The notes under the pieces were generated by a model. It had not been told where the DNA came from. It worked only from the letters and a program-made list of their open reading frames with translations, and made no database searches. Of a stretch of 26,465 nt of DNA, positions 72 through 20,631 are shown in pieces. This stretch comes from Baffinella frigidus (taxonomy: Eukaryota > Cryptophyceae > Cryptomonadales > Baffinellaceae), in assembly GCA_026770585.1 (NCBI GenBank), contig MU647591.1, forward strand, positions 30,474 through 56,938. Direction: 5' to 3'. Every line of letters begins with the position of its first letter. Position 1 is the first letter of the stretch. The position numbers were made by a program, and so were the translations under genes.

Positions 72-123
72 GTACCACGAGCGCGGGATCGCGTCGGTCT
101 CCTTTAGCAAGGACGGCACTAAG
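72..123 (+). CDS. EML exon 1 of window
   Basis: Acceptor GCAG at 68-71. One base completes the previous codon, then YHERGIASVSFSKDGTK. It matches the EML stretch ERGV..LDFS before the W-D-W repeat. Donor AAG/GTGGCG at 124. The intron's first bases (GTGGCG) nearly repeat the next exon's first bases (GTGGCC). Two 22-bp direct repeats lie just upstream. Confidence 0.8.
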
Positions 124-3100
124 GTGGCGGCCCCTGAACCTTCAACACCAAACACCAAACACTTAACACTTAACACCAAACACCAAACACCAAACCCTCA
201 ACACCAAACACCAAACACCAAAACACCAAACACCAACCCCCAAACCCCACCCCGCAGGTGGCCACGGTCGGGCTGGACCTCGACCACTCGATAGCCGTCT
301 GGGACTGGCGGAAAGGTGCTTCCCCCTCTCCCCTCCCACCAGCCCTCGAGGGAGCAACTCCTCTTTGTCGATCCCCTTGATTTGTACCGAGGGTCGCCGG
401 ATTCCGGCGACCTCCAGTGCAAATCAAGGGCGCTGGAAAAGGCGATTTGCTCGCAGTCTTGAGGGCGTTGGGTCTCTCTGGGGCTGGTCCTCGACCACTC
501 GATCGATGTCTGGGACTGGCGGAAAGGTGCTTCCCCCTAACACCCAAGACTACCCACTAAGTCCCACACCATACACCATAAACCATAAAACATAAACCAT
601 AAACCACAAACCATAAACCACAAACCACAAACCACAAACCACAAACCATAAACCACACACCACAAACCACACGCCACACACCACAAACCACAAACCACAA
701 ACCATAACGACAGGAACGCGGATCGCAACGTCGATGGGGTCTTCAGACAAGATCTTCGACGCGCGCTTTAACCCCGTCGACGACGTCCTCGTCACGTGCG
801 GCGTCCGCCACATCAAGTCTCAACCCTGAACCCTAAATCCTGAAATCCTCATCCCTAAACCCTCCGAAAGCCCTGATGTCGCTTTACTGTTAGAGTCGCT
901 TCTCTCTTCTCCAAACCCTAACCCCCTAAACCCTTACCCCTGGCCTCTAACCCCCTAACCCTAACCCCCCGAAACCCCAACCTCCGAAACCCTAACCCAT
1001 AACCCATAAATATCTAAGCCCCAACCCCCCCAACCCTAACTACCGCAGGTTCTGGAACATCATGGGAGACAACCAGCTCAAGTCCAAGCGCGGCATCTAC
1101 GGCCAGGTTCCAAACCCTACACCCTACACCCTAAACTATAAACCATAAACCATAAACCATAAACCATACACCCCAAACTCCCAACCCCACACCCTCAATC
1201 CTTCCAGCGCCCACGCTTGCAGGAGGGGGTGCAACACACGATGCTCCCGCAGAGCCCTAAACCCTAAACCCGGAACCCGGAACCCGGAACCCGAAACCCG
1301 GAACTCGCAACCCGGAAACCGGAAACCGAAACCCGGAACTCGCAACCCGGAACCCGAAACCCTAAAACCTAAACCCGGAACCCGGAACCCTCAGGAGGGG
1401 GTGCAACACACGATGCTATGCGTGGCCTTCACCGACACCCTAAACCCAACACCCCACACCCCAAACTTCAAACCCCACACCCCACACCCCAAACACCACA
1501 CCCTCAAACGTTCCCGCGCTCACGCTTGCAGGAGGGGGTGCAACACACGATGCTGTGCGTGGCCTTCACCGACGCAGGCCTCGCCCTCACAGGCGCCCAG
1601 GTACCTCAACCCAGGACCCTGACACCTGAGCCCTAACCTGTGTATACGATTGAGGGGTTCTGGGTTTGGGGGTTGGGGGATAAACGGTTGATGGGGTTGG
1701 GGGGTATACGGTCAGGGGGTTTGGGGGTATACGGTTGAGGGGTTTGGGGGCTATACGGCTGCGGGGTTGAGGGGGTGTTTAGGGTTTAGGGTTCAAGGTT
1801 TAGGGGAGGGGGTGCAACACACGATGCGGTGCGTGGCCTTCACCGACGCCCTCAAGGGTGCACAGGTCCACACCCCAAACACTGAACCCTGACCCGTTGA
1901 CACTGTCCGAACCCTACACCCTCAACTCTCCAGTTTGTACTGTCCCAACCCTCAACCCTCAAACCCCAGACCCCAAACCCCAAACCCCAAACCCCAAACC
2001 CCAAACCCTAACCCCCAAACCCCAAAACCCAAAACCCAAAACCCAAAACCCAAAACCTAACACCTAACCCGAAATCCCAAACCCCCAAACCCCCAAACCC
2101 CAAACCCCAAACCCCCCAAACCTCCAAACCCGAAAACAGTCGGGGGACATCTACCTCTGGAAGGGAGCGCGCCTCGAGTGGCAGTTCGAGGTCCATTCCC
2201 TAGCAGTCTATTTGGCTTCGCCAGTTTGTACCAGGAGGGGTACGATATCCGGTACCCCGCTGGTACAAATCCGCCTGCGCCTTAATCCGTCAAGTCCTTA
2301 AGCCTCGAGTGGCAGTTCGAGGTACACCCTAAAACCTAAACCCTAGAACCCAAACCCTAAACCCTAAACGCTTAACCTCTCAACTCTGAGTCCTAAACCT
2401 TGAACCCCTAAGCCCCTAAACCCCTAAACCCTGAACCCTGAACTCGAAACCCGAAACCGAGGCAGCGCCACCGCCGTGAGTGACAGGTCGATGGTAGACC
2501 TTAAACCCCAAACCCTCAACCCTAAATCCTAAACCCTAAACCCTCCCCCGATTCACTAGGACTTAAACCCTAAACCCTAAACCCTAAACCCTAAACGCCG
2601 CCCCTCTTTCCTCAACCCTAAATCCTGGAACCTAAACCCCTAAACCCTAGCCCCTGAACCCTGAACCCTAAACCCTGAACCCTGAACCCAAGGCCCTCAG
2701 GCGCACAATCTCATCTCGGACCATACCAGAATCTGTCCTGGTGAAAAGGCGTAAGATAGCATCATTTGGTGCCTAAAATAGTATACACCCTTACCTTCCG
2801 CGTGGGGAGCCTAAGATAGCGGGACAGATTCTGTCTTGGTCCGAAATTAAATCCCTCCCCGATTCGCTGGGATCTAAACGCCGCCTCTCGTGCCTCAATC
2901 CTCAACCCGAATTCCAAACCCCTAAGCACGAAACCCTGCACCCGAAATCCTGAACCCCAAACCCTGAACAAGGAGGGGTACGATTCCCGGGGACGCTTTG
3001 ACAGCAGAGCTCGGTCGCAGGTGCATCATACAATGCAGCGACAAGCGCGCAGCTGTGCTTCCTTAGGCTGCGAGACAATTGGGATCGGACCTTGTACCAA

Positions 3101-6100
3101 GCTGGAACAGGCCCGTGCTGGGTTCCTTGTTTTAACCCGAAACCCGAAACACCAAACACCAAACCCTCAACCCCAAACCCCAAACACCAACCCCGAACGC
3201 AGGAGGCGCCCGTGTTCGCCATCCCCACCTACCCACACAGCGGGCTTCGAAGGGATTTCGGATAACCCTTCCGCGATCAGACCTAGGACCCTACCATAGG
3301 CAACGCGCAGGGACATAGGGGGGTTCCTACGGGCAAGGTAACGGAACGTCGGCCGAAAATCTCTTCGTAGCTCGCCGTGTGGCCTGACGGCGTTGTTTCC
3401 GCACGAGAGAGAAGATAATCTCGAGGGACCTCCCCAGAGTCGTATATTACCAAGTATACAACGTATACGAAGTTGTTTTTGTCTATCTTCGTGTACGTTC
3501 TATACTTGTCTTCGTATACGTTGTATGGGGACTCACGTGGAAGAGGTCGGTATACGACGTATACAACGATGGTTCCAAAACCCGAAACCCGAAAGCAGGA
3601 AGCGCACATCGGGCCCGTGTTCGCCATCCCCACCTACCCACACAGCGGACTTCGAAGGGATTTCGGATAACCCTTCCGCGATAAGACCTAGGACCCTACT
3701 GTAGGCAACGCGTAGGGACATAGGGGGGGTCCCCAAACCCGAAACCCGACACCCGAACCCAGGAAGCGCACATCGGGCCTGTGTTCGCCATCTCCACCTA
3801 CCCTGACGGCTTTGTCTCCGGCGGTAAACCCTAAGCACCAAACCCCAAAACCCAAAACCCAAAACCCAAAACCCAAACCCCTAAACCCAAACCCCAAACC
3901 CCAAACCCCAAACCCCAAACCCCAAAACCAGGCAAGGATGGGCGGGCGCGGCTCTGGTCAGGACTCGACCCTGTCAAAGTACCACCCCCAAACCCTGACA
4001 GACACTTCCTCGAAAACGCACCTTTTCGACTCCGCGCGTCTTTCAAAACACACCTTTTCGAATCCACGCGTCTCTCAAAACACACCTTTTCAGCTCCGCG
4101 TCCCGCGAAACGCCGCGTTGCACCGTATTTATCTCTACGAAACGCTGCGTTACACCGTATTGATCTATGAAATTAGGCAAAGACGGGCTGGCGCGCCTCT
4201 GGTCAGGACTCGACCCTGTCAAGGTACCACCCTAAACCCCAAACTTCAAACCCTAAACCATAAACCATAAACCATAAACCCCAAACCCCAAACCCCAAAC
4301 CCCAAACCCCAAACCCCAAACCCCAAACCCCAAACCCCAACCCTACACCCTAAACCCTAACCCCTAAACCCTAAACCTTAAACTCTGAGATTTAAACTCT
4401 AAACCCTGAACCTTAAAACCCAGACTCTAAACCCTCAACCTTGGACTCCCTAACCCTTAAGCCCTAAACGCTAGACTCTAAACCCTCGACCCCAAATCCT
4501 CAACCCTAGACTCTAGACCCTAGACCCTAGACCCTAGACCCTAGACCCCAGAACCTAAACACTAGCCCCTAACGAATAACCCCTAAACCATTCCCCCTTC
4601 CCCCAAATCGCACCCGTTCGACTTCTCCTCGATAACGGTCACGTTCCGGTGCTGACAGAACCGTCCTCCAAAACACACCCTTTCGACTCCTCGTCCCGCG
4701 AAACAAGGCGTTAAATCGTATTTATCTTGACGAAACGCTGTATTACACCGTATTTATATATTGTTGCGGACTGGCGCGTCCGCGAAACGCCGCGTTTTTT
4801 ACCGTCGCGTCCGCGAAACCGCAGGTGTTCGACTTCTCGTCGACGACAGTCGCGTCCTCGATCTCGACGCGGATCCGCTCGGTCGCGTGGAAGGACGGTC
4901 ACGTGCTCGTCGGAACCATGTCCAACGAAATCTTCGAGGTGGCCACTCGAGGCTGGAAGGGGGGGCTTTTAAAATGTGGGGTTGTAGACATTTGTACGAG
5001 TCACGGGCGGGGTTGGTCACGTAGCCCGCGGATATCCGCGGGCTGGGGCAAATAACCTGACTATTTGGACGAGATGGTTGCGCGGAAGGATGGGCACGTG
5101 TCCGTCTGAACCATGTCCAACGCGATCTAATGTGGAAACGGTTTTAATTTAAACCCATTGGATGCAGTGAAAATTACTACACGATTGCTTTTATATTACT
5201 AGTAAAACTCTTTATGTGTAGTAAATTTCATTGCCAGAAAGTTTTAAATTAAAACCGTTTCCCTATGAGATCTTCGAGGTGCAGTCCCGCCCCACACAAG
5301 GCGGGCATTGACCTTTTCTTAAATGTTGGTTTTGAGGTCGTGTCCAGTATTTGTACGGGAATTGGTCACGTCCCCGGGGCTTAAACCCCCGGGGACGTGA
5401 CACTTACTACACAATGCAGAGACGACCTTCTTAAAATGGGGTTTTAAGAAAAGGTTGCGTGGTGCGTGGAAGGACGGTCACGTGCTTCCTTGGTCGGATA
5501 GCGAGGGGGCAAACGGATCTTTTTAATTCGGGTACGAATTTAAATTTTGGTACCAGTCGCGTCCAGTTTGTACTGGGCTTCAGCTCCCGATGGGAGCTGA
5601 AGGCAATAAATACCCGATCCATTTGCCCCCTCGCTATCCGAGCAAGATGTCGGGACCATGTCCATTGAAATCTTCGAGGTGATCTATTACGGGCATTGGA
5701 ACTGAAGTTTGGTCGATAAAGGGCATTGGAGCCGTTCCTGACGTTGGATCCATTCGTGACGTTAATAGGCGAACGGCCTGAAAATGGGGTAGTTAGGCAT
5801 ACGGCATTGCCTAGGACCTCCTACCGTAGGCCGAGAGATCCTAGGACCAAAAAGTCTCGGCCTACGGTAGGAGGTCCTAGGCAATGCCGTAGGCCTAAGT
5901 ACCCCATTTTTAGGCCGTTACCCTATTAACGTTGGATCCATTCGTGACGTTGAAACCATTCCTGACGCTTGATCCCTTTTCCTACCGCTTGATCCCTTTT
6001 CCGCTGTCGAGCGAGTTTGGCACGAAATCAAACGCCAAGGTCGAAAATCGACAATCGACCTTGGCTTTTCCATAGGAACCCCCTATGTCCCTACGTTAGG

Positions 6101-6515
6101 GCCTATGGATTACGTTTAGATGGACTGTTCCCTTCTCGCTCGGCAGCGGCTGACGCTTGATCCATTTTCCTGACGTTGGATCCATTCTTGTCGTTGGAAC
6201 CATTCCCGGCATTTGATCCATTCCTGACGCTGGATCCATTTCTGACTTTCCTGTAAAGCAACTCATGCACGACGGACGTTGGAGCTTTTTCTGACGCTGG
6301 CGCCGTTGTCATTTCAGGTGGACGGGCGGACAATGACGCAGCGTCTCATGACGCAATCGCACGCGGGCTGTTGCGAGCCTCTCTTTCCGCCAGCCTCAAC
6401 CCTTAACCCTACAACCTGAACCACAACCTTTCTGACGTTGGAACCATTCACTAGAGAGAGAGAGAGAGAGAGAGAGAGAGGCAGAGAGTGTGTGTGTGTG
6501 TGCGATGGAGAGAGT

Positions 6516-6547
<32 letters not shown>

Positions 6548-11652: not shown

Positions 11653-11690
<38 letters not shown>

Positions 11691-14600
11691 TACGAACACT
11701 ATTGGGCGCAGTCGCACCCACTCTACCTCTCTCTCTCTCTCTCTTTCTCGCGCGCGCGCGCTCTCCCTCTCTCCCTCTCTCTCTCTGGTAGTGGTCCCTA
11801 CACACTCAACCCGGCGCTCCACCGCAAGTAGCGAACCAGAACTGGGTGCTTGTGGGGCGCAGGTCTAATAAGAGACTATTGATTGCAGGTTGGGACCGTT
11901 TATGGTAAAAGTTGACTGGTTTGTACCAGATCCGTCAACTCTCATGATTTATGTGGCCAAAATCTCAGCACGTTTCTGATAAGGGACTATTGGGCGCAGG
12001 TCGGGACCGCGTCTACTACGGAGGGGTGCGCGCTGACACTCCTTGACTGGTTGGAACTCTCGAGCTTAAGAGACTATTGACGCGCGCGCCTTAAGAGACT
12101 ATTGGGCGCAGGTCTGATAACAGACTATTGGGCGTTGAGGGCTGATAAGAGACTATTGGGCGTTCAGATCTGATAAGGGACTATTGGGCGCAGGTCGGGA
12201 CCGCGTCTACTACCGAGGGGTGTGCGCTGACGCACCTCGACTGGTCCGAGGACGGGTTGTACATCCAGACTGATAACTCCGCCAAGCTGCACCAGGTTTG
12301 GGGTGTAGGGTTTCGGGTTTCGGAGTTTTACCTTCCTAGGGGTTTGGGGTGTAGGGTGTTGGGTGTGGGGCTCTAGGGGTGTAGGGTGTAGAGTGTAGAG
12401 TTGTACGGTTGCAGGGGTGTAGGGGTGCATGGTGTGGAGGTGTGAGGGGGTAGGGTTTAGGGGGGTAGGTTTTAGGGTTTCAGGGTGTAGGGTTAGGGTC
12501 GACGCACCTCGACTGGTCGGAGGACGGGCTGTACAGNNNNNNNNNNNNNNNNNNNNNNNNNNNNNNNNNNNNNNNNNNNNNNNNNNNNNNNNNNNNNNNN
12601 NNNNNNNNNNNNNNNNNNNNNNNNNNNNNNNNNNNNNNNNNCGCCCGTCGTGGGTTCGAGCCCACAAGACCCCTTTTTGCGAAAAAGAGGCCGTTCACGA
12701 GCCTGCCGGCGGGGCCCGTCCCGCCAAGCTGCACCAGGTCCTTGCTTGCCACACGAGGCTATTCAAGCGCCCAATTTACAAGTCGGTTGTAGGCGTTTTG
12801 AGGGGAGTTGGTCATGTGGCTACATGGAAAGCGTGCAGCCACGTGACCAAACATATGGAAATTAATGCACAATTTAAAAATGGTCTTTGAATTGGGGAAT
12901 GGGATAGCCTCGTGTGGTGGGGGTTCGGGTTTCGGGTGTCGGTCCTTCCTAGGGGTGTGGGGTGTGGGGTGTGGGTTGCAGGGTTCAGTTCAGGGTTTAT
13001 GGCCTGGGTTTCAGGGTTTAGAGTTTCAGGGTTTAGGGTTTCAGAATTGGGCAAGGTACAAGGTCCTCCTTAGTTCGTGTTTCTCGTGTGGATTCGTACC
13101 AGGGGCTACGGATTTCCGACCTCAGTTGCTTTACCATAGCGTTCGTAAACCCCTAAACCTTACACCATAAATCCCTAAACCCGGCAGTACTGGGACGCGC
13201 TCTCGGTGCTCGAGAAGAGAGACATGGAGGAGATGCTCTCTGTGCCGTATGAAGTTCAATCGTTTTGAAAATGCTACTGGTGTAACATCTTCACACCAGA
13301 CTCACCTTAAGGGGCAAGATGTTAAATTAATAGTTAAATAATGTGTTTCTTCCTGAAATCGCGCCGTTTGCTGAACCCGAAACCTTACCTCTCGCAGGAC
13401 TGAGACGCTAGATCGCTGGGCAGAGAAGGTGGCCACGGGAAATAATGGGAAATTGAGAAATTGGAGCCATTTTGTCCACTTTTGAGAAATTCATGGTACG
13501 CTACCGCACCCTGAAAGTGCCCAGTGTTCTCACCTCTGAACCATAAACCCAATCCAGTGTTGGGACGCGCTGTCCACACGAGGCTATCCATGCGAACAGA
13601 ATAAAAGGACATTTTAAAATTTGTGGGGAAATGATCACGTTTCCGTACGGATGTCCGTACGGAAACGTGATCAAATGCTGACTTTTGGCGTGTTTCCTGG
13701 GCAATAATCCGATAATTAACTTATGAATCTGTTCGCATGGATAGCCTCGTGTGGGTTGGTGCTGGAGAAGAGAGACTCTCTTGGAGGAGATGCTAGGCTC
13801 TCTCGCGGAGGAGAGCAGGGCGCTTTACAGTGAATCAGTTGCTTTACTATGAACGTCTGGTACCCCCCCCCCTCAGTACTGGGACGCAGTTGCTTTACAA
13901 TCTAGCTGAGCTTAAACCCCAATCCCTCTCTCTCGAACAGTACTGGGATGCGCTGTCGGTGCTGGAGAAGAGAGACGCGGAGGAGATGCTCTCACGCGCG
14001 GAGTGGGCTTCCTGGACGTGCATTTCGGGCTGGTCCGTCCAGGTTTGCCCCTGCCTCCTCTGTGCCAAGTACTGAGTACTCACCAGTTACCAAGTACTTG
14101 ATCACTTACTTATTAACAAACTAACTAATTAACTCACTAAGTATCTAAGTGCTTACTTACTTACTTACTGCTTCCTGGACGTGCATTTCGGGCTGGTCCG
14201 TCCAGGTGCGCCCCTGCCTCCTTCGTGCCAAGTACTTCGTGCCAAGTACTTCGTGCCAAGTACTAAGTACTCACCAGTTACCAAGTACTTGATCAATAAG
14301 TAAGTAAGTGAGTACTTAGATTGTTAGTTAGTTAATTAGTTAGTTTGTTGATAAGGTTTGAACCCCGAGACCCGAAACACCAAATAAAAAAACATAAACC
14401 ATAAACCATAAACCATAAACCATAAACCATAAACCCTAAACCCCAAACCCCAAACCCCAAACCCCAAACCCCAAACCCCAAACCCCAAACCCCAAACCCC
14501 AAACCTCAAACCGACTGGTCCTGCCAGGTCCTCAACCCGAAACCCTAAACCCCAAACCCTCGACAGGGGTTAATGCCGAAGCTGGGTCAACCTGTCGGCA

Positions 14601-17000
14601 TCAATCGACCTCAATCCTGAACCCTAAACTCCAAGCCCAAACCCTCAAAGCCCAAAACCCAAAACCCAAAACCCAAACCCCAAACCATAAACCCCAAACC
14701 CCAACCCCCAACCCCCAAACCCTAAACCCTAAACCCAAATCAAACCAAATCAAACATGGTTCAAACCAAATCAAACATCAAGTCAAACCGAATCATCACA
14801 CTGAAACTGCTCCCACTCGCACAGGGGCTGACGCCGAAGCTCGGGCAGCCTGTGGGCATCAACGCGGTGGCCCGCTCCAACGCACGCGACGTCCTCGCCG
14901 TCGCAAACGACATGGGCCTGGTGCGTTCTTATCGCCGCTCTTTGTACCAGGACGGCGGTTTAAAATGCATGTATATTGTATACAAGTACGTGTACGGCAC
15001 TGTCCTGGTACAAACCGCTGCCCGTGGAGACGCGAGCGGGGATTTATATTATTTATAGCGGTATTAGGTGGCGGGGGCAGCCTGGGGGTCAACGCGGTGG
15101 CCCGCTCCAACGCACGCGACGTCCTCGCCGTCGCAAACGACATGGGCCTGGTACGCGCCGTCCGATTTGTACCAAAACGGTGGTCCGTTTAGTACCAGGA
15201 CGTCCGTTTAGTACCAGGACGGCGGTTTAGAATAAATGTATATTGTATACAAGTACTTGTAGGGCGCTGTCCTGGTACAAAAGGCCTCCCGTGGAGACGC
15301 GAGAAGAGGTTATTAGGTGGGGGAGGCAGCCTGGGGGGGACGATGAGCGGGACCCCAAAACCCGGTTACCCTATAACCCGAACCCTGAACCCTGAACCCA
15401 TGTCAACCTAACCCTGAAACCCTGGAAACCAAACCCTGTAACCTGAAGCCCTATAACCTGATCCCTAAACCCTGAACCAGGTGCGGCAACCCTAAACCCT
15501 GAACCATGAACCCTGAGCCCTGAACCCTGAACCCTGAACCCTGAACCCTGAACCCTGAAACCTGAACCCTGAACCCTAAAACCTGAACCCTAAACCCTGA
15601 ACCTGGACCCCTGAACCCTAAACCCTAAACCCTGAACCTGGACCCCTGAACCCTGATCCCTGAACCTGGACCCCTGAACCCTAAACCCTGAACCCTGAAC
15701 CCTAAACTCTAAACCCTGAACCCTAAACCCTGATCTCTGAACCTTGGCCCCTGAACCCCTGAACCCTGATCCCTGAGCCTTGACCCCTGAACCCTGAACC
15801 CTGAACCCTAAACCCTAAACCTTGAATCCTAAACCCTAAACCCTAAACCCTAATCCCTAACCCCTTACCCCCTCACCACCCTGGACCGTTTCTCGAAACC
15901 AGGTACGGTTATACCAGCTCCCTGAACCCTGACCCCTGAACGCTAATTCCAATACTAATCCCGAAACCTCAAACCCGAAACCCGAAACCCGAAACCAGGT
16001 GCGGTTATACCGGTTCCCGTGCCCATACGTCGGATCCAAGCACAAGCGCTTCGCAGGCCATTCATCCCTCGTCTCGAACTGCAGGTCTTTCTCACGCCAA
16101 AAGTTGACGTGCTTGTACCACGAACCCCGGCTGTCAACTTGGGAATAGTCCGTCAACCCAATAGTCCGTGACCCCAATAGTCCGTGAACCCGAGAGAAGT
16201 CGGATCCAAGCACAAGCGCTTCGCGGGCCATCATCCCTCGTCTCGAATTGCAGGTCCGTCTCATTCCAGGGATGAAGTTTTAGGGGTTACCTGCCCTATT
16301 CAGCCCACCGCCAATCTCGTTTGCACAAGCAAGGCAATTCGAAAGTGTCTCAGTCTCTCTGGGCTCACCAATTTGGTGAGTCCGGGCTCGTTTTGCTCCA
16401 AAGTTGACCGGTTTGCAACACGAACCCAGCATGTCAACTTAAGAATAGTCCGTCAACCCGAGTGAGGCAGGGGCATTCCTCCCTGGTCTCGAACTGCAGG
16501 TCTTTATCACGCCAAAAGTTGACGTGTTTGTACCACGGACCCAGACTGTCAACTTGAGAATAGTCCGTCAACCCGCGTGAGGCGGGTTTGGGTCTTTGCC
16601 ATTCGAGACTTATTCGTGGTTTTGTTTGTGGCCATACAGCGGACTTCGAAGGGATTTTGAATCACCCATAAGCGATGAGACCTAGGACCCTACGGTAGGC
16701 AACCCGTAGGGACATGGGGGGGGGTTCGTACGGATAAGGTAACGGAACGTCGGCCCGATTTGGGCCGAAAATCCCTTCGTGGCCCGCTGTGTGGTCCTTA
16801 TAGATCGTTTGAAAAAGCGCGCGTTCCACAGAAGTTGACTTTCGTCTCCGCGCAGGTCCACCGTCACAGAAATTGACTTTCATCTCCGCATAGGAAGTTG
16901 ACTTTGGCCTGGGCGCAGGTTCACTTTCGACGACAAGTACCTGATCTCGATCGGAGCCCAGGACCGTTGCATCTTCCAGTGGGAACACGTCACGGACTGA
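72..17000 (+). CDS. EML-type WD40/TAPE microtubule-associated protein, 3' part of gene
   Basis: Multi-exon gene, open at the 5' end, TGA at 16998-17000. The joined exons read as the tandem WD40 (TAPE) region of echinoderm microtubule-associated protein-like proteins: AVWDWRKG, DKIFDARFNP, VRHIKFWNIMG, KRGIYGQ, TMLCVAF, GDIYLWKGARL, VLVGTMSNEI, AGAEVWGLDTHPS, DKTVRVYRV, LKFSPDGRFLA, THLDWSEDG, WASWTCISGW, GINAVARSN, AGHSSLVSN and IFQWEHVTD, in the family's order. EML proteins bind microtubules through this region and act at spindles and cilia (family knowledge). About 505 codons are visible; the N-terminal part is missing. Every junction is phase-consistent except around exon 15. Third codon positions are strongly G/C, unlike the A/C-rich introns. 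Family assignment is from recognition, not a search. Confidence 0.9.
258..315 (+). CDS. EML exon 2
   Basis: Acceptor CGCAG at 253-257, phase 0. Encodes VATVGLDLDHSIAVWDWRK plus one base. The DHSIAVWDW motif is diagnostic of EML propellers (compare S.EHMLTVWDWQK in animal EMLs). Donor AAAG/GTGCTT at 316. A second copy of its 3' half lies in the next intron at 484-526. Confidence 0.9.
374..430. repeat. Small palindromic element in intron 2
   Basis: Arms CCCTTGATTT and AAATCAAGGG enclose an inner hairpin GTCGCCGGA/TCCGGCGAC. It sits between exon 2 and its echo. No coding capacity. MITE-like by structure only. Confidence 0.7.
484..526 (+). pseudogene. Echo of exon 2, 3' half
   Basis: Copy of exon 2 from LDLDHSI to the donor (LVLDHSIDVWDWRKG), followed by the same GTGCTTCCCCC intron start. 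The frame upstream of it contains a TGA, so it is unlikely to be used as a full exon. It follows a small palindromic element at 374-430. Confidence 0.85.
714..816 (+). CDS. EML exon 3
   Basis: Acceptor ACAG at 710-713. Two bases complete a Gly codon, then TRIATSMGSSDKIFDARFNP and on to VLVTCGVRHI, ending with two bases of a Lys codon. Donor AA/GTCTCAACC at 817. DKIFDARFNP...TCGVRHIKFW is the best-conserved EML signature in the window. Confidence 0.93.
1049..1106 (+). CDS. EML exon 4
   Basis: Acceptor CCGCAG ending at 1048. One base completes Lys, then FWNIMGDNQLKSKRGIYGQ. This continues HIKFW and the EML K.GIFGK motif. Ends in phase 0 at CAG/GTTCC. Confidence 0.93.
1107..1531 (+). repeat. 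Intron 4: heptamer array with two exon 5 echoes
   Basis: Filled with CCATAAA, CCCGGAA and CCCTAAA heptamers. Two partial copies of the start of exon 5, each with the acceptor (CAG then GAGGGGGTGC), lie at 1223-1244 and 1395-1437. The second reaches TMLCVAFTD and has a synonymous CTA for CTG before dissolving into heptamers. Confidence 0.8.
1532..1600 (+). CDS. EML exon 5
   Basis: Acceptor TTGCAG ending at 1531. 23 codons, EGVQHTMLCVAFTDAGLALT then GAQ, phase 0 at both ends. Donor CAG/GTACCT. Matches EML ...QTMLC.AF....TGA.NGD. Chosen over three nearby copies because it alone has acceptor, full length and donor. Confidence 0.88.
1806..1863 (+). pseudogene. Echo of exon 5, nearly complete
   Basis: Reads EGVQHTMRCVAFTDALKGAQ and ends CAG/GTCC. 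Relative to exon 5 it lacks three codons in frame, has synonymous changes (GGC/GGT, GCC/GCA), a Leu to Arg and a Thr to Lys change. The AG directly before it is two bases off, so use as an exon would shift the frame. It follows a G-rich, reversed-orientation heptamer tract (about 1640-1800). Confidence 0.8.
2140..2190 (+). CDS. EML exon 6
   Basis: Acceptor AACAG ending at 2139. 17 codons SGDIYLWKGARLEWQFE, phase 0-0. Donor GAG/GTCCAT. Continues GAQ|SGDIYLW, the EML (N)GDVY.W strand. Confidence 0.9.
2302..2321 (+). pseudogene. Echo of exon 6, last 20 bases plus donor
   Basis: An exact copy of GCCTCGAGTGGCAGTTCGAG followed by GTAC. Between exon 6 and this copy lies a palindromic insert at about 2230-2272 with arms of the GTTTGTACCAG..CTGGTACAAA type. 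Confidence 0.85.
2717..2852. repeat. MITE-like inverted repeat in intron 6
   Basis: Arm GGACCATACCAGAATCTGTC is matched by an inverted GACAGATTCTGTCTTGGTCC about 90 bases later. The interior carries a duplicated TAAGATAGC. No coding capacity. Confidence 0.7.
3203..3400 (+). pseudogene. Echo of exon 7 split by a family A element
   Basis: GCAG followed by an exon 7-like start (EAPVFAIPTY) at 3203-3232. A 150-base palindromic element follows (3233-3382, ends CACACAGCGGGCT/CGCCGTGTGG). The exon then resumes as CCTGACGGCGTTGTTTCCG, matching PDGFVS of the real exon. The element clearly inserted into an existing exon copy. Confidence 0.85.
3233..3382. mobile_element. MITE family A, copy 1
   Basis: Terminal inverted repeats CACACAGCGG.../...CCGTGTGG. 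The interior is itself hairpin-rich (CTAGGACCCTACCATAGG, GGGACATAGGGGGGTTCC) and ends GCCGAAAATCTCTTCGTAG. Other copies or pieces lie at 3639-3727, 9682-9758, 16633-16794, 20957-20993 and 24570-24728. No transposase: non-autonomous. Confidence 0.8.
3599..3727 (+). pseudogene. Second echo of exon 7 with half a family A element
   Basis: GCAG then EAHIGPVFAIPTY (3599-3638), then the 5' half of a family A element starting at the same exon position as in the first echo, breaking off in the G run near 3727. Sharing the insertion point implies that the exon copy was duplicated after the insertion. Confidence 0.8.
3763..3823 (+). CDS. EML exon 7
   Basis: Acceptor CCCAG ending at 3762. EAHIGPVFAISTYPDGFVSG plus one base. 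Donor GGCG/GTAAAC. Equivalent to EML AH.G.VF......G..(S/T)GGKD. It is the only uninterrupted copy of three. Confidence 0.9.
3932..3978 (+). CDS. EML exon 8 (copy a)
   Basis: Acceptor CCAG ending at 3931. Two bases complete Gly, then KDGRARLWSGLDPVK. Donor AAA/GTACCACC. Together with exon 7 it gives the GGKDG...LW WD40 blade edge. A second intact copy of equal length is at 4177-4223. Confidence 0.87.
4177..4223 (+). CDS. EML exon 8 (copy b), candidate alternative exon
   Basis: 47 bases, the same length as copy a, with acceptor ATTAG and donor AAG/GTACCACC. Encodes the same peptide except Arg to Leu (KDGLARLWSGLDPVK). Of five base differences four are third-position synonymous. Including both copies would shift the frame (94 bases), so use must be exclusive if both are real. 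The separating 198 bases hold three copies of AAAACRCACCTTTTCG. Confidence 0.6.
4240..4590 (+). repeat. Heptamer-rich stretch of intron 8
   Basis: CCCCAAA units (about 4280-4345), then CCCTAAA, then CCCTAGA units (about 4500-4550). Local blocks share one variant before switching to another. No gene seen. Confidence 0.8.
4825..4938 (+). CDS. EML exon 9
   Basis: Acceptor CCGCAG ending at 4824. 38 codons: VFDFSSTTVASSISTRIRSV then AWKDGHVLVGTMSNEIFE. Phase 0-0, donor GAG/GTGGCC. Matches the EML blade ...IRAV......LVGT..N.I. It is the longest exon of the gene here. Two element-split echoes follow. Confidence 0.92.
5010..5045. repeat. Hairpin with GGTCACGT arm start
   Basis: AGCCCGCGGATATCCGCGGGCT palindrome following TTGGTCACGT. 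It shares the GGTCACG beginning and flanking GTACNAGTCACGGGC with hairpins at about 5370-5403, 12810-12850, 22778-22810 and 24971-25008, pointing to one element superfamily. Confidence 0.6.
5080..5278 (+). pseudogene. Echo of exon 9 split by an element
   Basis: KDGHV-like start at 5080-5128 with an in-frame TGA, then an element at 5131-5264 (arms GGAAACGGTTTTAATTTAAA and its inverse), then the exon end GAGATCTTCGAG/GTGCAG. GATCT occurs on both sides and may be a target duplication. Confidence 0.8.
5464..5678 (+). pseudogene. Second echo of exon 9 split by a different element
   Basis: GCGTGGAAGGACGGTCACGTGCTT (5464-5487), then an unrelated palindromic element at about 5490-5646 (arms GGTCGGATAGCGAGGGGGCAAA/ inverse), then GTCGGGACCATGTCCATTGAAATCTTCGAG/GTGATC. 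Both ends match exon 9; one base in the 3' piece is synonymous (GGA/GGG). Confidence 0.82.
5725..6315 (+). repeat. Degenerate 18-base minisatellite before exon 10
   Basis: Units of the type CTGACGTTGGATCCATTC recur at about 5735-5765, 5930-6000, 6150-6250 and 6275-6300. The unit resembles the 3' end of intron 9 itself (CTGACGCTGGAGCCGTTGTCATTTCAG), which suggests it grew from the acceptor region. A hairpin GCCAAGGTCGA/TCGACCTTGGC lies at about 6032-6064. Confidence 0.7.
5761..5930. mobile_element. MITE-like element, long palindrome
   Basis: Arms of about 77 bases starting GTTAATAGG and ending CTATTAAC, with a CTAGGACCTCCTACCGTAGG inner block. The 18-base sequence GTTGGATCCATTCGTGAC flanks both sides (5743-5760, 5931-5948). 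Because this is also the local minisatellite unit, it may not be a target-site duplication. Confidence 0.75.
6318..6368 (+). pseudogene. Echo of the start of exon 10
   Basis: The same GCCGTTGTCATTTCAG acceptor as exon 10, then VDGRTMTQRLMTQSHAG, one Glu to Gly and one synonymous CAG/CAA change. It then diverges into CTGTTGCGAGCC. Confidence 0.88.
6453..6547 (+). repeat. AG and GT/CG dinucleotide microsatellite
   Basis: (AG)n, then (GT)n, then (GC)n and (AG)n again, just upstream of the exon 10 acceptor. No gene. Confidence 0.95.
6586..6675 (+). CDS. EML exon 10
   Basis: Acceptor TTTCAG ending at 6585. 30 codons: VDERTMTQRLMTQSHAGAEV then WGLDTHPSQA. Phase 0-0, donor GCG/GTAATT. Equivalent to EML ..QGH.(D/E)GE.WGLATHP. 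I chose the upstream AG, which adds VDERTMTQRLMTQ in frame, over the AG at 6623-6624. Confidence 0.9.
6803..6862 (+). pseudogene. Echo of exon 10, 3' part
   Basis: Reads QSRAGAEVWGVDTRSSEA and ends GCG/GCAAGC, so the donor would be GC. Unlike other echoes, its changes are mostly amino-acid changing, so it looks unconstrained. Confidence 0.8.
6870..7120 (+). repeat. CACTGAA/CACTCAA heptamer block in intron 10
   Basis: AACACTG and AACACTC units replace CCCTAAA here, with a CAACCCT run near 7020-7045. No gene. Confidence 0.85.
7172..7213 (+). pseudogene. Echo of the start of exon 11
   Basis: Acceptor AACAG, then VFFTGGEDKTVRVY. Differences from exon 11: three synonymous (GTG/GTT, GGA/GGC, GTG/GTC) and one Val to Phe. 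It is interrupted after GTGTAC by an inverted-repeat element. Confidence 0.88.
7214..7460. mobile_element. MITE-like element between echo and exon 11
   Basis: Arms ATTTGATCTTAAGTGAACCG and the inverse GTTCACTTAAGATCAAAT, about 35 bases each, with TGTAC next to each end. It fills most of the space between the echo and exon 11. The interior is heptamer-rich (CATAAAA units). Confidence 0.75.
7473..7557 (+). CDS. EML exon 11
   Basis: Acceptor TTACAG ending at 7472. VFVTGGEDKTVRVYRVSSRK then PLLVRELE plus one base. Donor GAAG/GTCCGC. GGEDKTVRVY is a textbook WD40 D-x-T-(V/I)-(R/K)-(V/L) strand, matching EML ..A.DRQV.LW. Confidence 0.92.
7686..7754 (+). pseudogene. Echo of exon 11, 3' part
   Basis: The exon from EDKTVRVY to its end is copied exactly, followed by the same GTCCGCCTATT. 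Between exon and echo sits an element at about 7572-7671 with arms GGCAGTTGACTAA/TTAGTCAACTGCC. Confidence 0.9.
7920..8207 (+). pseudogene. Two echoes of the start of exon 12
   Basis: CAG then CGGGCGGTCAGTAGCCGATAAC at 7920-7943 and CAG then CGGGTGGGCGATCGGTCGCCTGT at 8184-8207 both imitate exon 12's CGGGCGTGCGGTCAGTAGCC. Both fade into pure CCCTAAA arrays (about 8030-8170). Confidence 0.7.
8299..8366 (+). CDS. EML exon 12
   Basis: Acceptor ACGCAG ending at 8298. Two bases complete Ala, then GVRSVAYNHDASLLACGLIT then GQ. Donor CAA/GTAATT. WD40 strand pattern S(V)AY..D...LA.GL, matching EML ..C.DFHPSG.VVA.G...G. Confidence 0.9.
8438..8570 (+). pseudogene. Three echoes of the end of exon 12
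   Basis: GGCCTGGTCGCAGGCCAA/GTAA (8438-8455), GGCCTCATCACTGGCCAA/GTAC (8492-8509) and GGCCTCGTCACATGCCAA/GTAA (8553-8570) each repeat exon 12's final GLITGQ and donor. They recur about 55-60 bases apart with telomere-like spacers. Confidence 0.85.
8795..8827 (+). CDS. EML exon 13 (33-base exon)
   Basis: Acceptor ACCAG ending at 8794. Eleven codons VIILEPKRLEQ, phase 0-0, donor CAG/GTCCG. Fits the EML strand (W)FVLDA....(V) after the G..(S/T)G turn. The short length lowers confidence, but phase and homology agree. Confidence 0.75.
8828..9460 (+). repeat. Telomere-like heptamer array, intron 13
   Basis: CCCCAAA, CCAGAAA, CCCGAAA and CCCTACA blocks, each locally homogeneous. No gene seen. The tail (about 9440-9640) is unique-looking with short direct repeats TGTAAAGTGACTCT/TGTGAAGCGACTCT. 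Confidence 0.85.
9645..9758 (+). pseudogene. Echo of the start of exon 14 plus family A fragment
   Basis: AAAAG then VCVQHARSTPI (9645-9679), then the inner/3' half of a family A element (CTTATCCGTAGGAACCCC through CTAGGGCTTATCGC). The real acceptor and exon 14 follow at 9772. Confidence 0.85.
9772..9855 (+). CDS. EML exon 14
   Basis: Acceptor CAACAG ending at 9771. 28 codons: VCVRHARSSPILDLKFSPDG then RFLATCSQ. Phase 0-0, donor CAG/GTTTAC. LKFSPDGRFLA is a canonical WD40 blade strand. Confidence 0.93.
9891..10096. mobile_element. MITE family B, copy 1
   Basis: Arms CTATTGTCGAAATGG/CCATTTCGACAATAG, then GCGCGGAATCGAGGTCAGGTC on the left and GACCTGACCTCGA..TTTTTTCCGCGCGG on the right. A second copy lies at about 21012-21234. 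The central part holds TATCTTAGGCATG. No ORF of note. Confidence 0.85.
10180..10384. mobile_element. MITE-like element abutting exon 15
   Basis: Arms CATACTAGTACAGTCCACCT..CCTAACACA and TGTGTTAGGGTAGGTCCACTGTAGTATG. Inner copies of ACACATACTTACCCTCCACACATACTCC are also inverted. Its right end runs straight into the probable exon 15, and CTGTAG in the arm is the only AG close to that exon. Confidence 0.8.
10391..10420 (+). CDS. EML exon 15, probable, borders unresolved
   Basis: The reading ETTNYLFLEE fits the EML strand (S)HDN.IYLY between exon 14's ATCSQ and exon 16. The only nearby acceptor (CTGTAG at the element end, 10380) would put it in the wrong frame with phase-0 exon 14, and the 3' side (GAG/GGCAAA) has no GT. 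GC or other non-canonical splicing, or damage by the abutting element, are possible. Left border chosen at the frame-supporting codon only. Confidence 0.35.
10421..10900 (+). repeat. CCCCAAA array and ACACAACAC microsatellite
   Basis: About 260 bases of CCCCAAA, CCACACC and related units, then ACACACAACAC repeats (about 10715-10775) and CCCCAAACA units. Long frames across it on both strands are repeat translations, not genes. Confidence 0.9.
10949..10993 (+). CDS. EML exon 16 (copy a)
   Basis: Acceptor ATCAG ending at 10948. 15 codons EGSLDVYEALVDFEL, phase 0-0, donor CTC/GTACTC. It supplies the short variable loop before the next blade (compare Y.R.G.C.GHSS.I in EMLs). Support comes mainly from phase, splice sites and a conserved second copy. 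Confidence 0.7.
11000..11700 (+). repeat. CCCTAAA telomere-like arrays, intron 16
   Basis: The purest stretches lie at about 11100-11150 and 11218-11270, then CCCTACA units (about 11560-11608) and CCCTCAA units (about 11635-11690). Interrupted by exon 16 copy b. No other gene. Confidence 0.85.
11329..11358 (+). CDS. EML exon 16 (copy b), candidate alternative exon
   Basis: TTCAG then EGALDVDFEL, donor CTT/GTACTC. Relative to copy a it lacks 15 bases (five codons) in frame, has two synonymous changes (GAT/GAC, CTC/CTT) and one Ser to Ala. Both splice sites are kept, and either copy alone keeps the frame. Confidence 0.5.
11865..12193 (+). repeat. Repeated acceptor-region module before exon 17
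   Basis: At least seven copies of (CTGATAA)GAGACTATTGGGCGCAGGT or near variants (about 11866, 11978, 12068, 12090, 12118, 12143, 12168), some followed by the exon 17 start GTCGGGACCGCGTC (12000-12053 is the longest). The module is the branch/acceptor region plus exon edge. An element with arms GTTGACTGGTTTGTACCAG... lies near 11907-11945. Confidence 0.8.
12194..12295 (+). CDS. EML exon 17
   Basis: Acceptor GCGCAG ending at 12193. 34 codons: VGTASTTEGCALTHLDWSED then GLYIQTDNSAKLHQ. Phase 0-0, donor CAG/GTTTGG. (I/L)THLDWS.D...I.(S/T)(N/D)S is one of the most conserved EML blades. Confidence 0.95.
12296..12500 (+). repeat. G-rich, reversed telomere-like tract
   Basis: GGTGTAGGGT and GGGTTTAGG units: the heptamer is on the opposite strand compared with most introns of this gene. 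Other reversed tracts lie at about 1640-1800, 12915-13045, 18200-18440 and 22965-23065. Confidence 0.85.
12537..12641. other. Assembly gap (Ns)
   Basis: 105 consecutive Ns in intron 17, inside an insert within an exon echo. Both flanks are GC-rich and hairpin-prone, a common cause of such gaps. Confidence 1.
12642..12686 (+). other. tRNA-like T-arm (box B) next to the gap
   Basis: CGTCGTGGGTTCGAGCCCAC contains a GGTTCGAGCCC close to the Pol III box B consensus in a GTGGG/CCCAC stem, followed by a TTTTT run. The loop is six bases, one short of a normal T-loop, and everything 5' is in the gap. It may be a tRNA-derived SINE or pseudogene, or chance. Confidence 0.25.
12749..12917. mobile_element. 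MITE family J, copy 1
   Basis: Ends CCACACGAGGCTATTC and GGATAGCCTCGTGTGG, with a central hairpin of the GTCACGTGG type (GTCATGTGGCTACATGG/ CAGCCACGTGACC) flanked by CATATGG and TTTAAA-like words. Copy 2 is at 13574-13754. Confidence 0.8.
13188..13241 (+). pseudogene. Echo of the start of exon 18
   Basis: GGCAG then YWDALSVLEKRDMEEMLS. Differences from exon 18: four synonymous (GAT/GAC, CTG/CTC twice, TCA/TCT) and one Ala to Met. It diverges after CTCTCT. Confidence 0.9.
13558..13793 (+). pseudogene. Echo of exon 18 split by a family J element
   Basis: CCAG then TGTTGGGACGCGCTGTC (13558-13573), element 13574-13754, then GTTGGTGCTGGAGAAGAGAG continuing to GAGGAGATGCT with a frameshift. Another short copy, TACTGGGACGCAG, is at 13877-13889. 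Confidence 0.88.
13574..13754. mobile_element. MITE family J, copy 2
   Basis: 26-base arms CCACACGAGGCTATCCATGC... / inverse. The centre is a perfect hairpin at 13633-13672 (GATCACGTTTCCGTACGGA/TCCGTACGGAAACGTGATC). It sits inside an exon 18 echo. Confidence 0.85.
13941..14042 (+). CDS. EML exon 18
   Basis: Acceptor GAACAG ending at 13940. 34 codons: YWDALSVLEKRDAEEMLSRA then EWASWTCISGWSVQ. Phase 0-0, donor CAG/GTTTGC. (D)W.(T/S)WTC..G(F/W).VQ is an EML landmark. It follows exon 17's LHQ as in Y.ILYWD.... Confidence 0.94.
14070..14350. repeat. Inverted/direct repeat around an exon 18 echo
   Basis: CTCACCAGTTACCAAGTACTTGATCA occurs twice (about 14080, 14268). The TTACTTAC/AACTAACTAATTAAC tail of the first is inverted as GTAAGTAAGTGAG/GTTAGTTAATTAG in the second. 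Between them lies an exact echo of exon 18's end, GCTTCCTGGACG..GTCCAG/GTGCGC (14169-14206). Confidence 0.85.
14380..14520 (+). repeat. CCATAAA then CCCCAAA arrays, intron 18
   Basis: Two homogeneous heptamer blocks back to back. No gene. Confidence 0.9.
14567..14605 (+). pseudogene. Echo of the start of exon 19
   Basis: ACAG then GLMPKLGQPVGIN. Over 13 codons it has six synonymous codon changes (CTG/TTA, CTC/CTG, GGG/GGT, CAG/CAA, GTG/GTC, AAC/AAT) and one Thr to Met. It then becomes CGACCTCAATCC. Confidence 0.9.
14825..14920 (+). CDS. EML exon 19
   Basis: Acceptor GCACAG ending at 14824. 32 codons: GLTPKLGQPVGINAVARSNA then RDVLAVANDMGL. Phase 0-0, donor CTG/GTGCGT. Matches EML .GTDINAL.RS.....(I/L)AVADD...(V). 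The intron begins GTGCG and the next exon also begins GTGCGG. Confidence 0.95.
14943..15020. repeat. Palindromic element of the TTTGTACCAGGACGG type
   Basis: TTTGTACCAGGACGGCGGTTTAAAATGCATGTATATTGTATACAAG...CTGTCCTGGTACAAA. A second copy lies at about 15198-15282, each just downstream of an exon 19 3' end. Confidence 0.8.
15078..15150 (+). pseudogene. Echo of exon 19, 3' part
   Basis: From QPVGINAVARS onward the copy is exact except for a two-base deletion and changes near the start that break the frame; donor CTG/GTACGC. A shorter third piece (GGCAGCCTGGGG) is near 15325. Confidence 0.88.
15350..15880 (+). repeat. CCCTGAA-dominated telomere-like array, intron 19
   Basis: About 500 bases of CCCTGAA/CCCTAAA heptamers. 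Short exon 20-start echoes (CAG-GTGCGGCAA at 15481; CAG-GTACGGTTATACCAGCTCCC at 15903) are embedded. No other gene. Confidence 0.88.
15999..16084 (+). CDS. EML exon 20
   Basis: Acceptor AACCAG ending at 15998. VRLYRFPCPYVGSKHKRFAG then HSSLVSNC plus two bases of an Arg codon. Donor GCAG/GTCTTT. Matches EML V.L(F/Y).(Y/F)PC.......K...HSS.V(T/S)N. Confidence 0.95.
16095..16580. repeat. Three copies of an AAAGTTGAC...GTCAACTT element
   Basis: CGCCAAAAGTTGACGTGCTTGTACCACGAACC..GGCTGTCAACTTGGGAATAGTCCGTCAACCC at about 16097, 16403 and 16512. Each follows an exon 20 3' end or echo, so exon edge and element were duplicated together. Confidence 0.8.
16199..16253 (+). pseudogene. Echo of exon 20, 3' part
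   Basis: GTCGGATCCAAGCACAAGCG through GAATTGCAG/GTCCGT, with synonymous GCA/GCG and AAC/AAT changes and a frame-breaking 1-base loss in CATTCATCC. A further echo, CAGGGGCATTCCTCCCTGGT..CTGCAG/GTCTTT, is at 16468-16499. Confidence 0.88.
16633..16794. mobile_element. MITE family A, copy 4 (full length)
   Basis: ATACAGCGGACTTCGAAGGGATTTT ... AAAATCCCTTCGTGGCCCGCTGTGTGG with the conserved core CTAGGACCCTACGGTAGGCAACCCGTAGGGACAT. Confidence 0.85.
16919..17000 (+). CDS. EML exon 21, C-terminus and stop
   Basis: Acceptor GCGCAG ending at 16918. One base completes Arg, then FTFDDKYLISIGAQDRCIFQ then WEHVTD and TGA. Matches the EML C-terminus (V.FT..D..LIS.GG.D..I.QW). The end of the protein is therefore at the family's usual place. 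Confidence 0.95.
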
Positions 17001-17009
17001 GCACCCACC

Positions 17010-17131
17010 AGCCCTCCGAGACGGACCAAATCGAGGCTGGAGCATGTGCCAATTCCTCGGGCGGCACCTTCGAAAACGAATGTGCCGCCCGAGGAAATGG
17101 CTCCAAACAATCGTCGATTTGGTCCGCCTCG
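17010..17131. mobile_element. MITE family K just after the EML stop codon
   Basis: Arms CCTCCGAGACGGACCAAATCGA and TCGATTTGGTCCGCCTCGGAGG with an inner hairpin CCTCGGGCGGCAC/GTGCCGCCCGAGG. The ends resemble the GACCAAATCGAC..GGAGCCATTTT repeats at 23508-23985. Confidence 0.85.
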
Positions 17132-17173
17132 GAGGACCGTTGCATCTTCCAGTGGGAGCACGTAACCGACTGA
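17132..17173 (+). pseudogene. Echo of the EML C-terminus
   Basis: EDRCIFQWEHVTD followed by TGA at 17171-17173. Against exon 21: three synonymous changes (GAA/GAG, GTC/GTA, ACG/ACC) and Gln to Glu. It starts immediately after the family K element, so the element lies between or inside two copies of the last exon. Confidence 0.9.
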
Positions 17174-17315
17174 AAATCAAATATATTTGATTACAAATAT
17201 GTTCAGTTCTAGGACCTAAAACCTGGGAGGGGGGGCGTCTCCTTATAAGCGAGGTACCCGTGTATGCCTCGAGGCATAGGAACCTAGGGTGGTCCTAGCA
17301 CTCTGTGAGGACGTA

Positions 17316-17432
17316 CAGGGGTGCCTTGCTCATAAGAAACTGCCTCCTCCTAGGACCCTACAGTAGGCCTATGCCTGGGGCCTTACGGTGGTCCTGGGGG
17401 GTGGGTAGTCTCTTATGAGCGAGGTACCCCTG
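17316..17432. mobile_element. MITE family C, copy 1
   Basis: Ends CAGGGGTGCCTTGCTCATAAG / CTTATGAGCGAGGTACCCCTG, flanked by TA on both sides, as expected of Tc1/mariner-type MITEs. The core CCTAGGACCCTACAGTAGGC is also palindromic. A 3' fragment precedes it at about 17228-17260. Confidence 0.85.
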
Positions 17433-17506
17433 TAAGGCGTCATTCGCGAACAACGACACGCACCGCCCTACGGTAGGGCTAGTCCTAGGAGCATAGGACC
17501 ACCCTA

Positions 17507-17636
17507 CAGGGGTGCCTCGCTCATAAGAAACGTGCATAAGAAACGTCCACCCCCCTAGGGTCCCCACATGGCCCTAGGCATAGGCCTCCTGTAGGGTCCT
17601 AGGGGGGTTTGGTTTCTTATGAGCGAGGTGCCCCTG
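17507..17636. mobile_element. MITE family C, copy 2
   Basis: CAGGGGTGCCTCGCTCATAAGAAACGTGCATAAGAAACGTCC: the left arm has a short internal duplication. TA on both flanks. Confidence 0.85.
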
Positions 17637-17668
17637 TAGGCACGGTGCATGTCCATTTTCGCGAGTAT

Positions 17669-17767
17669 CCCACAAGTGGCGAGTAGGCTCATACGCCCTA
17701 CCGTAGGGCCCTAGGACCTGCCTAGGACCTCTTTGCGGTCAAATTTGACCGCCTCGCCACTTAAGGG
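17669..17767. mobile_element. MITE family E, copy 1
   Basis: CCCACAAGTGGCGAGTAGGC ... CGCCACTTAAGGGG, with an inner GCGGTCAAATTTGACCGC palindrome and the family core GCCCTACCGTAGGGCCCTAGGACCTGCCTAGG. Related copies are at 18910-19008 and 24159-24256. Confidence 0.75.
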
Positions 17768-17849
17768 GTGTATACCCTGTAGACTAGGATGGGCCCGCCT
17801 CGGGACGGGGTCTGGGACGGGCCCGCCTCGGGGCAGGAGGCCCGCAGCG

Positions 17850-17912: not shown

Positions 17913-17954
17913 GAGTGATGTAAACGCACGGGGTACACGTGCGATAAGAGGGGA

Positions 17955-18192: not shown

Positions 18193-18199
18193 TGCTCGC

Positions 18200-18440: not shown

Positions 18441-18464
18441 CTCGGATGGCAACCAACATGGGTA

Positions 18465-20629: not shown

Positions 20630-20631
20630 TC

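Follow-up and report, generated by a model that had tools for sequence, protein, structure and literature searches.

Copies of exon edges, mostly separated by inserts, in the introns of a predicted EML-type WD40 gene of Baffinella frigidus

Results

A predicted EML-type gene with long introns

The window analysed here is a stretch of 26,465 nucleotides (positions 30474-56938, + strand, of a contig of 56,938 bases) from an assembly of 382 Mb in 1364 contigs, with contigs of up to 2 Mb. Judged by its sequence, the gene at 72-17000 is a predicted EML-type WD40 protein gene. Its 20 exons were placed by reading (Table 1) and the stretch upstream of position 72 reads N. When joined, the exons give a single open frame of 494 amino acids with its stop at 17000; they total 1486 bases, against 15,443 for the introns. 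Both EML beta-propellers are present in the product, with Pfam PF23409 and PF23414 above the cut-off, and the nearest solved structure is that of EML1 (4ci8). The JGI protein P0001 is 85% identical along the entire length of the product in an alignment that crosses the exon junctions, the sole exception being an insertion of 22 residues at the junction of exons 2 and 3. A Hanusia phi protein is among the homologues.

The phycoerythrin alpha family (PF02972), which is typical of cryptophyte nuclear genomes, has matches at 11 places in the assembly; together with the Hanusia phi homologue these indicate that the source is probably a photosynthetic cryptophyte. A passage of one source describes cryptophyte genomes as able to pass 500 Mbp, often with more than half of the sequence in repeats (PMC12220804). 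Repeat content is high in the window, which has a run of N at 12537-12641, and in 17 of the 19 introns of the gene the match at lag 7 is at least 0.05 above that at neighbouring lags.

Table 1. Exons of the EML-type gene and copies of their edges (window coordinates)
Feature	Region	Strand	Details
EML-type WD40 gene	72-17000	+	20 exons seen
Exon 1	72-123	+	
Exon 2	258-315	+	
Exon 2 end pair	270-538	+	270-327/481-538; 58 bp, 93%; spacer is foldback element 335-472
Exon 3	714-816	+	
Exon 4	1049-1106	+	
Exon 5	1532-1600	+	
Exon 5 copies	1221-1860	+	start copies ~1221-1245 and 1392-1434 upstream, heptamer-repeat spacers; copy 1805-1860 downstream
Exon 6	2140-2190	+	
Exon 6 end pair	2174-2327	+	2174-2195/2305-2327; foldback core 2225-2269 in spacer
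Exon 7	3763-3823	+	intact exon; region with two upstream copies, A and B, 3179-3823
Exon 7 copy A	3179-3401		3179-3234 and ~3383-3401, split by complete F1 (3235-3380)
Exon 7 copy B	3575-3639		followed by right-truncated F1 (3640-3732), then intact exon 7
Exon 8	3932-3978	+	
Exon 8 pair	3925-4239	+	3925-3995/4170-4239; 87%
Exon 9	4825-4938	+	
Exon 9 end and two downstream copies	4881-5681	+	5076-5128 and ~5267-5283; 5464-5486 and 5649-5681; each copy split by foldback element
Exon 10	6586-6675	+	
Exon 10 start pair	6286-6636	+	6286-6368/6554-6636; 83 bp with acceptor, 95%; simple repeats in spacer
Exon 10 end pair	6615-6888	+	6615-6701/6802-6888; 79%; simple repeats in spacer (exon 10 region 6286-6888)
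Exon 11	7473-7557	+	
Exon 11 start copy	7172-7514	+	copy 7172-7213; inverted-repeat element 7208-7464 between copy and exon
Exon 11 end pair	7491-7765	+	7491-7568/7688-7765; 78 bp, 100%
Exon 12	8299-8366	+	
Exon 12 copies	7917-8598	+	start copies ~7917 and 8182 upstream; end copies within 8404-8598 downstream
Exon 13	8795-8827	+	
Exon 14	9772-9855	+	
Exon 14 start pair	9630-9806	+	9630-9679/9758-9806; 86%; 78-bp spacer is internal F1 fragment
Exon 15	10949-10993	+	
Exon 15 and shortened copy	10949-11369	+	copy 11327-11369; heptamer-repeat spacer
Exon 16	12194-12295	+	
Exon 16 start pair	11855-12739	+	11975-12051/12169-12245; 94%
Exon 16 end copies	12490-12739	+	12490-12535 and 12721-12739, on both sides of the N run
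Exon 17	13941-14042	+	
Exon 17 start copies	13123-14318	+	13123-13240 and 13755-13810
Exon 17 end pair	14007-14318	+	head-to-tail, 14007-14159/14170-14318; 75%, gap 10
Exon 18	14825-14920	+	
Exon 18 start copy	14561-15337	+	14561-14610
Exon 18 end pair	14843-15337	+	head-to-tail, 14843-15088/15075-15337; 71%; copies adjoin, spacer duplicated too
Exon 19	15999-16084	+	
Exon 19 end pair	16056-16574	+	16056-16159/16471-16574; 104 bp with following intron, 91%; further copy 16190-16268
Exon 20	16919-17000	+	
Last exon end pair	16960-17173	+	16960-17000/17133-17173; 41 bp, 93%
Last-exon spacer	17001-17132		F3 foldback, left end complete, right end truncated

Exon edges are echoed in the adjacent introns

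To quantify the echoes, probes of up to 40 exonic bases were compared with the adjacent intron (or the 600 bp past the stop) and with 17-18 non-adjacent introns. As many as 28 of the 40 exon edges align better to the adjacent intron than to any non-adjacent one, which confirms the claim of the initial annotation that exon edges are echoed in neighbouring introns. Starts are copied in the preceding intron at 11/19 exons and ends in the following intron at 13/20, against 7/20 for starts in the following and 1/19 for ends in the preceding intron; part of the class of starts copied downstream consists of short exons duplicated almost whole. The order described in the initial annotation, starts before and ends after, is therefore upheld. 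Our exon numbers differ from those used there by one from exon 15 on (its exons 16-20 are 15-19 here) and, once shifted, all 10 exons listed with start copies are recovered, together with exon 9. The listed end copies are likewise found with the exception of the end of exon 15, with a score of 12 versus 13 elsewhere, and the copy of the last exon after its stop is present. Duplication across the exon-intron junctions is dense, as had been claimed, and the introns have been enlarged by it.

The same order had been taken as a sign of tandem duplication. It is not specific evidence for this, because a duplication over an acceptor leaves the spare copy upstream and one over a donor leaves it downstream if one intact exon is required; any junction-spanning duplication combined with selection gives the same order, selection for an intact exon being sufficient alone.

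For the copies themselves we used 25 pairs that touch an exon, from which heptamer-rich pairs had been filtered out beforehand and which are not all independent, as several share one exon. Their identities range from 65% to 100%, so that the pairs differ in age. The run of N and the high repeat content could point to an assembly artefact, but this graded divergence, the recurrence of the structure on unlinked contigs and contigs of up to 2 Mb in length make misassembly scarcely credible.

Most copies are separated by inserts

The initial annotation proposed repeated tandem duplication as the general unit, which the arrangement of the pairs does not support. Only two of the 25 are head-to-tail (exons 17 and 18), while in the other 23 the copies stand 78-707 bp apart and the widest of these gaps pass over a further copy; a simple tandem arrangement, with insert-free copies lying head-to-tail, is absent from these 23. 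A purely tandem model was accordingly rejected as a general account and retained for exons 17 and 18. If plain tandem duplications over the junctions had been followed by later insertion of elements between the copies, this would account for these two exons and for the elements found in the interior of the exon 7 and 9 copies. As an explanation of the whole it seems improbable to us: the 23 spaced pairs are not head-to-tail even with overlapping pairs allowed, and later insertions would not be expected at the joint, nor would flank copies be expected specifically at truncated elements. In a wider sample 4/263 pairs have a gap below 12 bp, a figure of little weight, since WD40 blades are part of the sample and pairs with an overlap above 5 bp had been left out.

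Spacers were tested for foldback in 25 pairs delimited by hand, one being left unscored with a spacer above 600 bp. Of the 24 scored spacers, 10 hold an inverted repeat beyond those of 200 base shuffles (p<=0.02); other spacers hold heptamer repeats (exons 5 and 15) or other simple repeats (exon 10). Telomerase was considered as a conceivable source of the heptamers. The spacers at exons 7 and 14 are truncated copies of one family, F1; in the two upstream copies of exon 7, F1 lies at the same position, complete in copy A and shortened in copy B. Downstream of exon 9, each of the two spare copies of its end is interrupted by a different foldback. At the end of exon 11 the spacer is made up of a foldback at ~7578-7666, its borders set where most family matches in the genome begin or end, plus 9 and 21 nt.

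Similar measures were taken beyond the gene. Among 137 inverted-repeat elements from 14 sources, 17 have flanks whose match surpasses the 99th percentile for mismatched flanks, against ~1.4 expected, and the flank match of the other 120 stays within the threshold. Repeats abut both ends of 8/137 elements, compared with 0.19 expected, although in one of the eight (window 5759-5932) the flanks may belong to the element itself. A survey of spacer ends started from 112 pairs in 247 kb and 43 sources, from which six with high heptamer content were dropped. Both ends are assessable in 18 of the remaining 106: 12 are truncated at the flank copy at one or both ends, four have two natural ends and two are unclear. 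The spacers of 59/106 pairs have too few relatives for either end to be judged, and some of those judged lie in WD40 genes. An intergenic copy of a second family, F2, at 26061-26177 has a 44-bp flank copy, from which it follows that exons are not required.

Flank copies and truncated element ends

The foldback elements are 90-160 bp long. F3, the family of the last-exon spacer, was scored at 40 of 321 candidate places, namely the window's own and 39 others with 93-97% identity. The inverted ends are complete in 26 of the 30 copies with flanks (25 by script, L022 by eye), and these 26 show no clear long repeat abutting the element; L042 has a weak or borderline one, and in L027, L029 and L038 flank repeats are present but do not abut. 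The other four, including that of the window, lack the last 11-13 bases of the right end, and beyond the break each of them continues with a direct copy of the opposite (left) flank, 41, 9, 28 and 20 bp long. The 28-bp copy was read by eye, the script having chosen a longer and more distant repeat there. Inspected by eye, the joint has 3-7 matching bases in three of the four, and the fourth, L049, has an extra base; the L049 flank, again judged by eye, reads as the end of an exon of another gene with GT after it. Identical 2 bp are found on both sides in 17 of 25 scored copies, and F3 has the terminal inverted repeats, short target duplication and many copies of a MITE.

An abutting flank copy was found at 1/16 complete and 6/16 truncated F1 copies, counts that supersede a smaller one of 0/8 and 3/9. 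For F2, which has TA flanks, the corresponding figures are 3/25 complete and 1/7 truncated. Pooling F1 and F2 gives 7/23 truncated versus 4/41 complete (Fisher p=0.046; mismatched flanks expect 0.9%), while F3 rests on its separate 30-copy count with a different criterion. On the per-family counts the link between flank copies and truncated ends is strong in F3, present in F1 and absent in F2, so that two of the three families show the association of flank copies with shortened ends. Apparently complete elements lie between copies at the exon 11 end, in L029 (F1) and at the intergenic F2, and many others are truncated. Because the exon 11 spacer looks complete and F2 behaves differently, we gave up the general rule that a flank copy always accompanies a truncated element.

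Age and size of the introns

The initial annotation also invoked intron gain by duplication of AGGT-containing exon segments, and many junctions are indeed of the AG|GT type, as is common for introns. The match between donor and acceptor contexts was compared with that of mismatched pairs, whose 95th percentile is 8 bases. None of the 19 introns lies above this null, the best (intron 18, 8 bases) being equal to the threshold, and intron gain of this kind was rejected as showing no signature above chance. We regard it as very improbable as an explanation, and the predicted proteins of relatives also speak against it: three of the junctions have, in these proteins, an insertion resembling a read-through intron at the junction or no more than a codon away, namely the 22 residues at 2/3 in P0001 and ~58 at 16/17 and ~14 near 18/19 in P0026, which has insertions away from the junctions of the EML-type gene as well. 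This suggests that the introns at these three junctions are old. If the insertions are retained introns, they would be ~42-174 nt long in the relatives versus 398-1645 nt here. With echo status assigned by hand from the edge test, introns with echoes are longer than the four without (134, 232, 108 and 1093; one-sided p=0.03). Both enlargement and gain of introns are reported for another alga, in a paper whose section 3.4 is silent on exon-edge copies (PMC12730881).

Echoes in other genes

Analyses of other genes of this genome, as the initial annotation had recommended, revealed echoes there too. At least one one-sided pair at >=85% identity was found in 6/11 WD40 loci; 9/60 WD40 matches have an echo, and 7/10 such pairs follow the same order. 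These matches are not exact exons, and only one-sided pairs were counted because DNA self-comparison is confounded by the WD40 blades. The chaperonin genes give a cleaner check, with nine exons placed by eye in three regions (8 of 10 matches). Compared with 300 shuffles, 5/18 edges score higher in the expected direction, two of these with a margin of a single point, and 0/18 in the opposite one; one of the five echoes is a copy after a stop codon. The WD40 and chaperonin echoes make the EML-type gene the extreme of a wider phenomenon of the genome. By these unlike measures it is the densest of the genes examined, though the echoes are not confined to it.

Discussion

A proposed route to longer introns

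Our preferred reading, to which we give about an even chance of being right, is that old introns have grown by aberrant insertion or repair at foldback (MITE-like) elements. Each event would leave a flank copy, an insert and a second flank copy over an exon-intron junction, the insert often being a short foldback DNA element and elsewhere an array of heptamers or other simple repeats. An element might enter an exon or its border, or a break might arise at one element end. One end of the element would be kept exact and the other, often shortened, would be rejoined to the target tens of bases back by means of a few matching bases and either a second copy of the target, on the element-free sister or homologous chromosome, or a staggered break; the intervening stretch would hence occur in two copies. 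As long as one exon stayed whole and its splice sites functional, an event would be unseen in the mRNA and persist; the others would be purged by selection.

We infer aberrant insertion or repair, with one end exact and the other rejoined upstream through a few matching bases, and an unoccupied chromosome as the repair template. The interrupted copies of exons 7 and 9 beside intact exons are as expected if elements struck exon sequence and the intact exon was kept or regenerated. On the side of this reading we counted these interrupted copies, the spaced pairs (23/25), the foldback spacers (10/24), the excess of matching (17/137) and abutting (8/137) flanks among the inverted-repeat elements, the truncation counts for F3 and F1 and the 12/18 spacers truncated at a flank copy. 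Against it stand the F2 counts, the apparently complete element with 30 nt of filler at exon 11, the head-to-tail copies at exons 17 and 18, the simple-repeat spacers of exons 5, 10 and 15, the 120/137 elements below the flank threshold, the 59/106 spacers with too few relatives to judge and the three complete F3 copies whose flank repeats do not abut.

The copies could instead derive, independently of transposition, from staggered breaks (paired nicks) in which both sides were filled in and DNA captured as filler was included on rejoining; foldback pieces and heptamer arrays would then be no more than this filler. In favour of it are the heptamer and other simple-repeat spacers, which are without transposon ends, and the exon 14 spacer, an internal F1 fragment lacking both ends. 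Fill-in at 3' overhangs is known to give small tandem duplications, as a passage of PMC8355091 describes. We consider this explanation unlikely, as it requires overhangs of 40-90 bases, and one element end is preserved exactly in F3 and in several further spacers, unlike random filler. Taken separately, hybrid element insertion would suit the complete elements found between copies, and filled-in breaks the heptamer spacers.

Intron growth is usually ascribed to ordinary transposon insertion and drift. We raise as a tentative possibility that exon insertion may be self-healing, in that a break at the failing end of the element would be repaired from the unoccupied sister or homologous chromosome, with the intact exon and its splice site regenerated. 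If so, exon hits would be nearly neutral, each lengthening an intron and leaving an exon echo, which would give a lineage a general means of intron growth. It would also explain how the gene survives repeated hits on its short exons. At the exon edges single events have left legible scars, with both copies and the insert preserved, so that their mutational course can be retraced one by one and the events ordered by age.

Comparison with known systems

The phenomenon somewhat resembles alternative transposition, break fill-in and introner biology but could not be assigned to any of them, and such dense exon-edge duplication is not named in the titles and abstract openings listed by searches of an open-licence library. 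In hybrid element insertion of P elements, aberrant use of the ends produces a direct duplication next to the element. Passages on alternative transposition of maize Ac/Ds describe a local direct duplication beside the element through aberrant use of transposon ends, one such duplication carrying an element without 12 bp of one inverted end (PMC3744419). The likeness lies in a direct duplication close to an element. In the maize product from reversed ends the element is itself duplicated, and the example quoted in those passages has repeats of ~1.2 kb, whereas in our gene a single element sits between copies that are tens of bases long.

Short direct duplications at breaks have reportedly been the subject of work in rice by Vaughn and Bennetzen. 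Direct duplications below 100 bp at breaks are attributed to Pol alpha-CST fill-in in a passage of PMC8355091. Patch-mediated or Pol alpha-CST fill-in, so described, shares the short direct duplications, but here an insert lies between most copies, often with an exact transposon end.

Introners are described, in excerpts of two papers, as short inverted-end elements tied to introns (PMC9860276; PMC7789003). According to these they give rise to new introns, and their direct repeats measure 3-9 bp (3-5 nt in Amoebophrya), while in our case introns already present have lengthened and the repeats run to tens of bases. No examined element covers an intron from end to end and provides the splice sites; the elements lie inside introns with other sequence at the borders. 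Direct repeats around splice sites are attributed to insertion in a passage of Rogers and Bendich 2025 (PMC11782384). The repeats given there are 4-30 bp long and lie at or near both borders of one intron, in contrast to the copies here, which reach 100 bp or more and are internal to the introns.

With MITEs and foldbacks our elements share the short foldback, the many similar copies, the 2-bp target duplications in F3 and the TA flanks in F2. Ordinary MITE insertions carry only short target duplications, and unlike these a minority of the elements here have long flank copies.

Heptamer repeats in the introns

A 7-base periodicity runs through the introns of the EML-type WD40 gene (17 of the 19, across 124-16918). 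The periodic heptamers are AAACCCT-like, mostly with the C-rich version on the coding strand, and such arrays form the main content of the two shortest introns (108 and 134 bp). The copy of the end of exon 16 in the neighbouring intron is interrupted by an N run (region 12537-12720). The sequence just beyond the N run contains GGTTCGAGCCC, which resembles a tRNA B-box, and is perhaps a SINE. The 10 kb immediately upstream of the window (L001; contig C1106, 20474-30473) are all N and the 5′ part of the gene is therefore outside view.

Duplications at other loci and downstream repeats

In a chaperonin gene on L052, another stretch of the same assembly (reverse-complement coordinates, from about 1503 on), the end of the last exon is copied past the stop codon, as it is in the window gene. 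Elsewhere in the assembly, a coding-looking 90-bp segment is present twice with 98% identity and a foldback element between the copies (L016, 7824-8133). Downstream of the window gene, 17306-26214 holds numerous copies of the MITE-like foldback family F2, which starts with CAGGGGTACCTCGCTCATAAGAAACC; those whose flanks were read have TA on the flanks. The intergenic F2 copy at 26061-26177 sits between direct repeats of 44 bp.

Other repeats in the downstream part of the window
Feature	Position	Remarks
Tandem repeat, 84-bp unit	23508-23851	About four copies
Inverted partner of the 84-bp unit	23922-23991	
Two-copy sequence, roughly 60 bp	18785-18845 and 24480-24535	Starts GACACCGGAACTTGTTCTGTAGAAAG; intergenic, by eye
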